Shown: one piece after another, positions 10,257 to 57,661 of the stretch
Numbering within the stretch: the stretch's first letter is position 1
Layout: the number at the start of each line of letters is the position of its first letter
Source: Planctomycetota bacterium
GTDB taxonomy: Bacteria; Planctomycetota; MHYJ01; JACQXL01; JACQZI01
Assembly: GCA_016207825.1 (NCBI GenBank)
Contig: JACQZI010000017.1
Coordinates: forward strand, 1 to 64,000
Length of the DNA stretch: 64,000 nucleotides
Direction of reading: 5' to 3'
Made by a program: the position numbers and the translations under genes
The notes under the pieces: generated by a model
What the model saw: the letters and a program-made list of their open reading frames with translations, nothing else
The model's database searches: none
What the model was told of the DNA's origin: nothing

Positions 10257-10330
10257 TACGCCCGGCAAGAGTCGAACTTGCGACCTGCGGTTTAGGAAAC
10301 CGCCGCTCTATCCTGCTGAGCTACGGGCGC
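10257..10330 (-). tRNA. tRNA-Arg (CCU anticodon)
   Basis: The minus strand folds into a complete 74-nt cloverleaf. The acceptor GCGCCCG pairs with CGGGCGT, including one G-U pair. The D arm is GCTC/GAGC. The anticodon stem GCGGT/ACCGC encloses the loop TTCCTAA with anticodon CCU. The T arm is GCAAG-TTCGACT-CTTGC, and the discriminator base is A. CCA is not encoded. It sits 21 nt upstream of the kinase gene in the same direction. Confidence 0.96.
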
Positions 10331-27926: not shown

Positions 27927-29270
27927 CTATTCTAAACCGTATTTCTTTAATTTTTCCCAAAGGTTCTTCCGGCTGATTTGGAGAATACCGGCCATTTCGG
28001 TTTTATTGCCCTTGGTAAACTCATTAAGGCGCTTAAGATAGGCCACTTCCGCCTGGTTAAGATATTCAACCAGGCTGATAAACTGGTCAGGCATTTGGGG
28101 CGAATCCGACTCGGCAGGCTGCACCGGTTGAGGCTTTATAAGATGCTCCTTTTTCAAAACAAGGCTGTCGCCGGCCAGGGTCACGGCGCGTTCCACGGCG
28201 TTTTCCAGCTCCCGGACATTGCCCGGCCAATTATAGTTTTGCAAGGCAAAAAGGGTTTCAGGATCAACTTTATACTCTTTCCCCTTGCCGTACTTTTTTA
28301 TGAAATGGTCCATCAAAAGCTGGATATCAGACTCTCTTTCACGCAAGGGCGGTATTTTTATATTGACGACATTCAAACGATAATATAAATCCTCCCGGAA
28401 AGAGCCGTCCTTGACTTTTTTAAGGAGGTCATCCTTCGTCGCAACAAGGATTCTGATATCAACTTTTATGGTAGCCGTACCGCCGATACGCTCGAATTCG
28501 TGCTCCTGAAGCACGCGCAACAACTTGACTTGGGTACGTGGAGACATATCGTCGATATCATCGAGGAAAATGGTGCCTTTATCAGCCATTTCGAACCGGC
28601 CGATTTTCTGTGATTTGGCATCGGTAAAAGCGCCTTTTTCGTGCCCGAACAGTTCCGCTTCTATCAGGTTTTCCGGGAATACTGCACAGCTTATTTTCAC
28701 CAACGGCGCGTCTTTTCTCAGGCTTTGGGTATGGATGGCTTCGGCAACCAGTTCCTTGCCGGTTCCGCTTTCCCCCTGGATCAAGACGCTTGCATCGCTT
28801 TTGGCAACGCTTTCAATCAACTGAAAAACCTCCTTCATTTTATGGCTTTTGCCGACCAGGTTTTCGTAATGCTGTTTTTCCTCTTTGAGCTTCAGGTATT
28901 CCTGGCGGATTTTATTCTGCTGCCTGATACGTTCCAGAATCAGGAGGACTTTTTCATTATAGAAAGGCTTTTCGAGATAATCATAAGCCCCGCTTTTGAG
29001 GGCAACTATGGCGGAATCAACCGTGCCGAACCCGGTAATGATAATGATGGGCAAATCAGGCTTGGCAACGGTGGTTTTCTGCAAGATTGTCATCCCGTCC
29101 ACGCCAGGCAGTTTAATATCCAAAAGGACGCAATCAAAGTCCTGCTGGGAAAGCAACTCCAGAGCGCGATTGCCGTCCGGTGCAACGGTAAGGTCATAAC
29201 CTTTTTCTTTTATGGCATCGCCTAATGTTACGCGGATACCTTTGTCATCTTCGGCTAAAAGCACTCTCAT
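27927..29270 (-). CDS. NtrC-type sigma54-dependent response regulator
   Basis: This is a 447-residue protein. The receiver domain (1-120) has the phosphoacceptor Asp in LLDIKLPGVDG. The AAA+ domain (about 145-375) has Walker A GESGTGKE and Walker B GTIFLDDIDD. A Fis-type helix-turn-helix closes the C terminus (TEMAGILQISRKNLWEKLKK). The sigma54-contact loop reads GAFTDA instead of GAFTGA. This variant is also found in a subgroup of NtrC-like proteins, so it need not be inactive. No histidine kinase lies beside it. A sigma54-like promoter is present at 56450-56466 in this window, but no link is shown. Confidence 0.93.
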   Translation of the reverse strand: MRVLLAEDDKGIRVTLGDAIKEKGYDLTVAPDGNRALELLSQQDFDCVLLDIKLPGVDGMTILQKTTVAKPDLPIIIITGFGTVDSAIVALKSGAYDYLEKPFYNEKVLLILERIRQQNKIRQEYLKLKEEKQHYENLVGKSHKMKEVFQLIESVAKSDASVLIQGESGTGKELVAEAIHTQSLRKDAPLVKISCAVFPENLIEAELFGHEKGAFTDAKSQKIGRFEMADKGTIFLDDIDDMSPRTQVKLLRVLQEHEFERIGGTATIKVDIRILVATKDDLLKKVKDGSFREDLYYRLNVVNIKIPPLRERESDIQLLMDHFIKKYGKGKEYKVDPETLFALQNYNWPGNVRELENAVERAVTLAGDSLVLKKEHLIKPQPVQPAESDSPQMPDQFISLVEYLNQAEVAYLKRLNEFTKGNKTEMAGILQISRKNLWEKLKKYGLE

Positions 29271-56326: not shown

Positions 56327-56437
56327 TAAAAAACCCCCAGCATATCGCCGGGGGATGATTGCAGAGCCTTAAGCTATGTCCGTCGCCGGAACTATATAGC
56401 CTAAGGACTCCGGAGAGGGGTTTTAATTATTCCTATA
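56327..56437 (-). ncRNA. Free-standing structured small RNA of unknown family
   Basis: Read on the minus strand, a ~110-nt RNA is predicted from about 56437 to 56327. Its main hairpin pairs 56396-56406 with 56367-56377 (CCTTAGGCTAT with ATAGCTTAAGG, one mismatch). The apex is CCG-GCGA-CGG, a GNRA tetraloop on this strand only. A palindromic CTCCGGAG precedes the hairpin. The 3' end is an intrinsic terminator (56328-56354). A promoter lies directly upstream. No start codon with a ribosome site is present. Nothing codes on this strand downstream, so it is not a usual riboswitch. I could not match it to a known RNA family. Confidence 0.65.
56328..56354 (-). terminator. Intrinsic terminator of the small RNA
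   Basis: On the minus strand CCCCC (56354-56350) pairs with GGGGG (56338-56334), followed immediately by six T (56333-56328). The same CCCCC on the plus strand could instead pair with GGGG at 56417-56420, giving AAAACCCC/GGGGTTTT as a possible end of the pilB transcript. Confidence 0.8.
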
Positions 56438-56438
56438 T

Positions 56439-56466
56439 ATTATATATAAGGCAAAATTCGTGCCAA
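56439..56466 (-). promoter_or_regulatory. Overlapping sigma54 and sigma70 promoter for the small RNA
   Basis: On the minus strand TTGGCACG (56466-56459), four bases, then TTGCC (56454-56450) give the GG-N10-GC spacing of sigma54 promoters. The same TTGGCA (56466-56461) lies 16 bp from TATAAT (56444-56439), a sigma70-type arrangement. Both would start transcription around 56431-56439, just before the structured RNA. Confidence 0.65.
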
Positions 56467-56576: not shown

Positions 56577-56607
56577 TATCCTACAGGCGGAAGTTTTTTC
56601 CGCCTGT
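56577..56607. other. Hairpin downstream of the PIN-TRAM gene
   Basis: ACAGGCGGAA and TTCCGCCTGT pair perfectly (10 bp) around a short T-rich loop about 20-50 nt after the stop codon at 56627 on the minus strand. No T-run follows on that strand, so it may be a processing or stabilising structure rather than a full terminator. Confidence 0.5.
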
Positions 56608-56626
56608 ACGGTAATTTCTGCCTATT

Positions 56627-57661
56627 TTAAGAACCTCTTTGGCTACCGCCGACATTGGCGAATATCATTTTACCGGCACTTGTCTGCAATACACTGGTCG
56701 TGGTTACGGTAAGGCGCTGGCCAATCTTATTCCCAGCACCTTCAACAACTATCATGGTGCCGTCATTTAGATAAGCAACCCCCTGCTGGTATTCTTCCCC
56801 CTGGCGGACAATCCTGACTTCCATGGTTTCACCCGGTAAAACGACGGTTTTTAGGGCATTGGTCATATCGTTCATGTTGATAACGGTAATACCCTGTACC
56901 TGCGCCACTTTATTCAGGTTAAAATCGGTAGTCATCAAACGCCCTTTGAGGTGTTTGGCAAGTTCTATAAGCTTATCGTCCGTATTTTTTATATTGGGCA
57001 TTTCCACTTCGCTTATTTGCACGTCAATATTCTTGCTATCCTGCATCTTTTTAAGGATATCCAACCCATGCCTACCGCGGGTTCTTTTCAGGCGGTCGGC
57101 TGAATCGGCAATGCGTTGTAGTTCCATCAGGACAAAACGCGGGATTATCAAAGGGGCTTCGATAATTCCGGTCTCACCGATATCCGCAATACGGCCATCA
57201 ATAATCACGCTGGTATCAACGATGATCGGACTCATGCCTTTTCCTTCCTTGGAAAGTTCGATAAAGGGTATCACGAACTTGAAATCATCCTTGCTGCGTA
57301 TGATTGCCAGGATAGAAAGAAACGAAACCGCAAAGGTAATGGCAAAAGATAGCCATTCTTTGAAATTAGGCGTATCGGTTACCAGTTTTTGCATCCAAGG
57401 AAGCAAAAACAACGCCTGGATGAAAAGGAAAGACACGATAAACCCGAAAACCAACCCGAACATTACCACGGAAATCGTGCCGATATAACGCCTGGTGAAG
57501 AAGACCTCCCCCGTCACGAATAGCACGGCTAAAACCATGCCGATAATCAATCCGTAATAGCCGGTGGCATGGTCTGCCGGACCGGTTGAAAACAAAGAAC
57601 CTATATACCAGCCGATGATTCCGCTGATAATCAAAAATATCGCTCTTAAAATATATAACAT
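56627..57661 (-). CDS. Membrane PIN-TRAM protein (YacL-like)
   Basis: This is a 344-residue protein. Four N-terminal membrane helices (about 5-20, 36-52, 63-88, 106-120) are followed by a PIN nuclease-like domain (about 145-265). That domain has the acidic residues in IIVDTSVIIDGRIAD, VLMELQ and TTDFNLNK. A C-terminal TRAM domain follows (about 275-335, VVLPGETMEVRIVRQGEEYQQGVAYL). YacL-type proteins are widespread, and RNA or nucleotide binding is suspected. AGGAGG precedes the start. Confidence 0.9.
   Translation of the reverse strand: MLYILRAIFLIISGIIGWYIGSLFSTGPADHATGYYGLIIGMVLAVLFVTGEVFFTRRYIGTISVVMFGLVFGFIVSFLFIQALFLLPWMQKLVTDTPNFKEWLSFAITFAVSFLSILAIIRSKDDFKFVIPFIELSKEGKGMSPIIVDTSVIIDGRIADIGETGIIEAPLIIPRFVLMELQRIADSADRLKRTRGRHGLDILKKMQDSKNIDVQISEVEMPNIKNTDDKLIELAKHLKGRLMTTDFNLNKVAQVQGITVINMNDMTNALKTVVLPGETMEVRIVRQGEEYQQGVAYLNDGTMIVVEGAGNKIGQRLTVTTTSVLQTSAGKMIFANVGGSQRGS

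Follow-up and report, generated by a model that had tools for sequence, protein, structure and literature searches.

On the minus strand of the Planctomycetota DNA analysed here (the window, 64,000 nucleotides), a small RNA transcript of ∼112 nt is predicted at positions 56328–56439 from a covariance model match and from its fold, the 5′ end being placed by inference. The neighbour directly upstream on the same strand, which is not part of the RNA, is a gene for a protein with Pfam PIN and TRAM domains (56627–57661), and the convergent gene on the other side is pilB, an assignment supported by Pfam domains. The transcript contains no gene, and an interpretation of the locus from its letters alone (hereafter the sequence-only reading) had noted that none lies downstream on this strand; the next gene on the minus strand (53858–52050) is located beyond pilB. 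A transcript that holds no gene and ends in its own terminator is what is expected of a stand-alone small RNA (sRNA) gene.

Structure and distribution of the RNA

The covariance model matches the minus strand from 56427 to 56355 with a score of 83.5 bits. Near the 5′ end of the predicted transcript is a conserved pyrimidine run, CCCCUCUCC (56412–56420), followed by a bulged stem-loop (56412–56362) of 5 bp, a bulge, 11 bp that include one G-U pair, and a short apical helix capped with a GCGA loop of the GNRA type. A conserved linker, CAAUCAU (56355–56361), joins the stem to an intrinsic terminator, CCCCCGGCGATATGCTGGGGG-TTTTTT, in which a hairpin precedes a run of six T residues (56328–56354). 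The hairpin of 11 positions, the GNRA loop and the terminator with its T run had all been recognised in the sequence-only reading; the first proves to be part of a longer, 16-bp bulged stem, and the GNRA loop, read from the aligned sequences, occurs in just three of the seven known members. The fold of the 113-nt RNA is more stable than expected by chance (z-scores of −3.7 to −3.9, with at most one of 200 shuffled sequences equally stable).

A nucleotide search of related genomes detected homologues in six further genomes of the same order, the weakest (G008) with an E-value of 0.18. The seven members represent seven genera and three families (f1, f3, and f4) of this one Planctomycetota order, with a single copy per genome. 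Their alignment yields a consensus of 20 base pairs, seven of which have changed on both sides, and 94.2% of paired cells can pair, compared with 86.4% in shuffled alignments (0–1 of 500 as good) and with 52% or less if the pairing partners are slid; compensatory change and conservation of the stem in relatives, proposed as a check on the original interpretation, are thus both seen. Read on the opposite strand the alignment pairs in just 81% of cells, which identifies the minus strand as the RNA. The pyrimidine run (CYCUCUCC) is nearly invariant and mostly unpaired by predicted probabilities, being partly paired in the predictions for three members (G000, which is the genome of the window, G007, and G006), and the lower stem and linker are conserved in sequence as well as in structure. 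All relatives have a hairpin at the terminator position, with differing sequence, and a T run follows it in five of the seven; the terminator is the least conserved part of the RNA in sequence, whereas conservation is highest in the 5′ run and in the stem before the terminator.

A covariance model built from four sequences, with the window, G005, and G008 left out, recovers these three at E-values of 5e-20, 2e-14, and 8e-12, respectively (81.6 bits for the window). Together with the homologues and the compensatory pairs, this recovery shows that the RNA is real beyond chance, and there is little doubt that the minus strand at ∼56439–56328 holds a genuine, conserved RNA gene, its structure, strand, promoter elements, and distribution being established computationally. 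The core of the sequence-only reading, namely a structured RNA predicted to stand free and to have a terminator of its own, holds. No known family in Rfam 15 reaches its threshold for the RNA; under gathering and loose thresholds the best matches score 21.7–24.3 bits against thresholds of 39–102 and mostly reflect terminator similarity, and a search with the RNAs of the relatives was likewise negative. The sole match within the window at the gathering threshold is a tRNA gene (10257–10330, minus strand). The small RNA represents a previously unlisted, order-restricted family, although RNAs of its kind are known.

When 294 and 392 genomes of the phylum were searched, just the seven members were detected, together with two matches with E-values near 0.01, in G002 and G311, which were judged to be due to chance as they lie inside flgI and opposite the dnaJ/grpE region, respectively. 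The G002 match (L245, 1680–1759) runs in the sense direction over TPLRGP codons of flgI; G002 belongs to the same order and in G015 flgI stands behind a promoter similar to that of the RNA. Descent of the RNA from an flgI fragment was considered for this reason and left as unlikely. A genome of the same genus as the window (G001) gave no match, although this says little because it is 56% complete and the PIN-TRAM gene is missing from it too. Named database records that contain the RNA core come from uncultured Planctomycetota and include one with the label Candidatus Brocadiaceae, and none of the viral contigs searched carries the RNA.

In four genomes (G000, G003, G007, and G008) the RNA lies ∼200 nt past the stop codon of the PIN-TRAM gene and is encoded on the same strand. 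The convergent partner is ftsK in G003, G005, and G008 and pilB in G000 alone, so that adjacency to pilB is particular to that genome. In G005 a guaA-like gene is located upstream of the RNA and PIN-TRAM is found elsewhere, in the f4 members (G004 and G006) the RNA precedes a small, unrelated gene, and near the PIN-TRAM genes of class members from beyond the order no copy of the RNA is detectable. In f1/f3 no gene follows the RNA. Preservation of the RNA whichever genes flank it indicates an independent unit that has changed neighbours. The possibility that the element is merely a terminator or barrier between convergent genes, with no function as RNA, draws on the terminator hairpin at its end and on the convergent genes (with pilB or ftsK opposite) that flank it in most f1/f3 genomes. 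It is highly improbable given that conservation is lowest in the terminator itself, that the setting in f4 is not convergent, and that promoter elements are conserved as well.

Promoters and the upstream control region

A sigma54-type −24/−12 box, TGGCACGAATTTTGC, is situated immediately upstream of the predicted transcript (56451–56465, minus strand), as the sequence-only reading had pointed out. All nine fixed positions of the box (GG-N10-GC; TGGCAY-N5-TTGC) are identical in the five f1/f3 members, while the 40 bases that precede it are at the random level of identity (25%) in the same five, and the box is missing in both f4 members. One such box in 64 kb is by itself unremarkable, at least one being found in 26 of 100 shuffled sequences, and the case for sigma54 is consequently one of comparison among relatives. 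The TTGGCA-N16-TATAAT sequence that had been read as an overlapping sigma70 promoter is present (56466–56439), but TATAAT falls in an AT-rich stretch and its spacing from TTGGCA varies in relatives, and it was rejected as a conserved promoter.

The rpoN product (Sigma54_DBD above cut-off) was detected in 20 of 23 genomes of the class, including G000, where sigma54 boxes are strongly enriched across the genome (59 sites compared with 8 for the reversed pattern, and 31 compared with 2 in a stricter form). Many of these boxes precede genes for secreted proteins and one precedes a type IV pilin gene, which is consistent with the prediction that sigma54 controls flagellar and type II secretion genes in the Planctomycetia (PMC12316311). 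In Campylobacter, a sigma54-like motif beside the sRNA CJnc230 was not its main promoter (PMC11187230), so that such a motif next to an RNA need not be its promoter. On the strength of the comparative evidence, transcription of the RNA in G000 is nonetheless quite probably driven by sigma54, and the proposal of an unnamed, free-standing sRNA gene with a sigma54-type promoter is borne out by the homologues, the covariation, and the conserved box.

Other sigma54 boxes were found in repeated settings. Contigs C5 and C8 of G000 (loci L252, L255, L280, L282, and L218–L243) contain repeated modules built on a sigma54 activator gene (∼660–690 aa), which ends ∼130 bp before a strict TGGCACGATATTTGC box; behind this box come a small protein bearing an LRGKPxAK motif and then a large secreted protein (DSWSETTFT.GTF family). 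In G008 (L079 and L088; C72, ∼2118–2326), two sigma54 boxes face each other at the ends of a ∼200-bp element, and pairs of boxes with this spacing recur on contigs C92, C111, and C129, which points to a repeated element of MITE-like type.

Upstream of the box in the window is a perfect palindrome, CGGAA-N5-TTCCG (56588–56602), a candidate enhancer site with its centre 130 bp from the box, and 21 bp further upstream is a weaker partner that agrees at 7 of 10 positions (56609–56623). At 120–202 bp from the box on its upstream side, G000, G003 (two perfect copies), G007, and G008 each have such a 15-bp palindrome, accompanied by a second copy, perfect or imperfect, at a distance of exactly 21 bp (two helical turns) upstream of the first; G005 has a degenerate pair with the same spacing. 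Summed over seven loci, the partner score is 52 at −21 compared with a mean of 18 over other spacings. A perfect copy of the palindrome is missing from all 29 further strict sigma54 promoters that were examined in G000. The position of the palindromes behind the PIN-TRAM stop codon led to their consideration as a plain terminator of that gene; this reading is opposed by the degenerate pair that precedes the RNA in G005 behind a gene other than PIN-TRAM, and by the lack of palindromes at most PIN-TRAM genes without the RNA. It retains some probability, since G015 and G011 have the palindromes and no RNA. The tandem palindromes resemble a site for one specific enhancer-binding protein, and are a likely candidate enhancer for an NtrC-type activator. 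The sequence-only reading had named a possible activator, encoded at 27927–29270 (minus strand); this is a genuine NtrC-type protein, and no link between it and the RNA promoter was found. It has GAFTDA, as does a paralogue in L262, in place of the GAFTGA of most sigma54 activators, the loop that makes contact with sigma54.

Position downstream of PIN-TRAM could also mean that the RNA has no promoter of its own and is processed from the 3′ part of the PIN-TRAM transcript. The distance of ∼200 nt on the same strand in four genomes would be compatible with this, and the related CJnc230 is cut from an mRNA (PMC11187230). A conserved sigma54 box and the candidate enhancer, however, intervene between the two, G005, G004, and G006 have the RNA without PIN-TRAM upstream, and PIN-TRAM genes outside the order lack the RNA, all of which makes processing very improbable.

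A clear sigma70-type promoter is found just in f4, at a different place, and consists of TTGACA-N16-TATAAT or TATACT followed by a shared AAGTGTAAGTTACG; transcripts from it would start 69–126 nt before the pyrimidine run. Behind the sigma70 promoter these two loci (L050 and L051) also have AAGTGTAAGTTACGAA in common, a possible operator in the form of an imperfect TGTAA-N-TTACA palindrome. The class of promoter thus differs between families, with sigma54 in f1/f3 and a sigma70 type in f4, whereas the RNA is kept. Retention of the RNA body under different sigma factors in sister families raises the question of whether selection keeps the action of the RNA or the signal to which it responds.

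Control elements of the same kind are found in two genomes that lack the RNA. In G011 a palindrome pair follows PIN-TRAM and precedes an imperfect sigma54-like box, and in G015, a relative within the class, a perfect palindrome and a related second one occupy the same place after PIN-TRAM and precede a sigma54-like box, downstream of which come a small reading frame and flgA-flgH-flgI (FlgH, 2e-6; FlgA, weak at 0.007; FlgI, 31% identity to the G002 protein). The frame behind the box in G015 and G011 (L210, ∼2490–2780; same place in L213) has ∼45–55 codons and ends in VVF, and the small G015 protein has no Pfam match. No relatives of flgI or flgK were found in the ∼0.8 Mb of G000 that was read. 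The arrangement in G015 makes a flagellar origin of the control region possible, and it may tentatively be suggested that the RNA has captured a flagellar-type module whose wiring was rewritten at least once; if so, the small RNA would be tied into the circuit that controls a surface organelle. The flagellar-like enhancer and the difference in promoter between families are the most unusual features of the system.

Proposed action and comparison with known systems

In f1/f3, RNA polymerase with sigma54 would transcribe the RNA from the conserved box, and the most likely switch is an NtrC-type activator acting from the tandem palindromes, 120–220 bp upstream; in f4 the sigma70-type promoter would take its place. 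Sigma54 promoters work such that transcription is expected to start ∼12 nt past the GC element, which would put CYCUCUCC 5–21 nt from the 5′ end in f1/f3. This run is complementary to purine-rich ribosome-binding sites, and a trans-acting RNA whose 5′ end pairs with the ribosome-binding sites of at least one mRNA, lowering translation without a recognisable Hfq, can be envisaged. There is perhaps an even chance that CYCUCUCC pairs in this way, and the RNA probably silences other genes. The explanation as a whole, a small RNA gene transcribed by sigma54 in f1/f3, switched by an activator and pairing with ribosome-binding sites, is moderately favoured.

Exact-seed searches for targets (GGAGAGGGRT; GGAGAGRG-N-ATG) in six to seven genomes gave few sites and no orthologue shared by two species; one glnA-like start was matched in G004 and was absent from the other hits. 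Leaders in the sigma54 regulon are no more complementary to the RNA than the background (p = 0.29 for the 5′ end and 0.24 for the linker) and pilB is a neighbour only in G000, so that the earlier suggestion of pilus or envelope targets finds no support. Hfq was not detected above cut-off in 23 genomes of the class in which controls were positive, a search that may miss a distant Sm-like protein.

An RNA that acts instead by binding a protein, as a decoy or scaffold in the manner of CrcZ/CrcY or of the CsrB type, with the stem and its flanks as the site, would account for the conservation of the lower stem and linker in sequence and for the lack of a shared mRNA in the target searches. It is rather unlikely, as there is a single hairpin with no repeated motif and no CrcZ-like A-rich repeats, GGA is not kept in loops, Hfq is not recognisable, and among the unpaired parts it is the pyrimidine run, on which the pairing proposal is founded, that varies least.

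Regulatory small RNAs appear to have been little studied in Planctomycetota, and full-text literature searches on small RNAs and sigma54 in the phylum returned nothing relevant. The family described here, well supported and with its control region complete, provides a concrete case of sRNA use in a lineage without a recognisable Hfq, and the covariance model and enhancer motif can be applied directly to other genomes.

The Qrr sRNAs of Vibrio (∼110 nt) are transcribed from a sigma54 promoter with the NtrC-type activator LuxO, end in an intrinsic terminator, and pair in trans. The planctomycete RNA is comparable in size, sigma54 promoter, and terminator, and in the activator and trans pairing proposed here. 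The Qrr RNAs differ in their structure, in having several copies per genome, and in their dependence on Hfq, which was not recognised in the 23 genomes of the class; no Rfam match links the two. RoxS/RsaE and RepG are anti-Shine-Dalgarno sRNAs with C/U-rich unpaired seeds aimed at ribosome-binding sites, and share a pyrimidine-rich seed with the planctomycete RNA, which is not homologous to them in sequence or structure and has its proposed seed at the extreme 5′ end.

CJnc230 (FlmE) of Campylobacter jejuni is a ∼98-nt RNA linked to sigma54-dependent transcription; it resembles the planctomycete RNA in length, in the sigma54 link, in having a gene just upstream, and in a single-stranded anti-Shine-Dalgarno stretch, which in CJnc230 lies between two stem-loops (PMC11187230). 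It differs in being processed from the flgE mRNA and made from an RpoD promoter as well, in lying behind the flagellar hook gene in all species known to have it, in its unrelated sequence and structure, and in having known targets, flgM and another (PMC11187230). CrcZ and CrcY of Pseudomonas and Azotobacter are, as predicted for the planctomycete RNA, stand-alone sigma54 RNA genes, with the NtrC-family activator CbrB, but sequester Hfq-Crc (PMC8657755), whereas no A-rich Hfq/Crc-binding repeats were seen by eye in the aligned planctomycete sequences and Hfq was not recognised. By analogy, the planctomycete RNA may work most like CJnc230, under a control logic similar to that of CrcZ/CrcY, while being a member of neither family.
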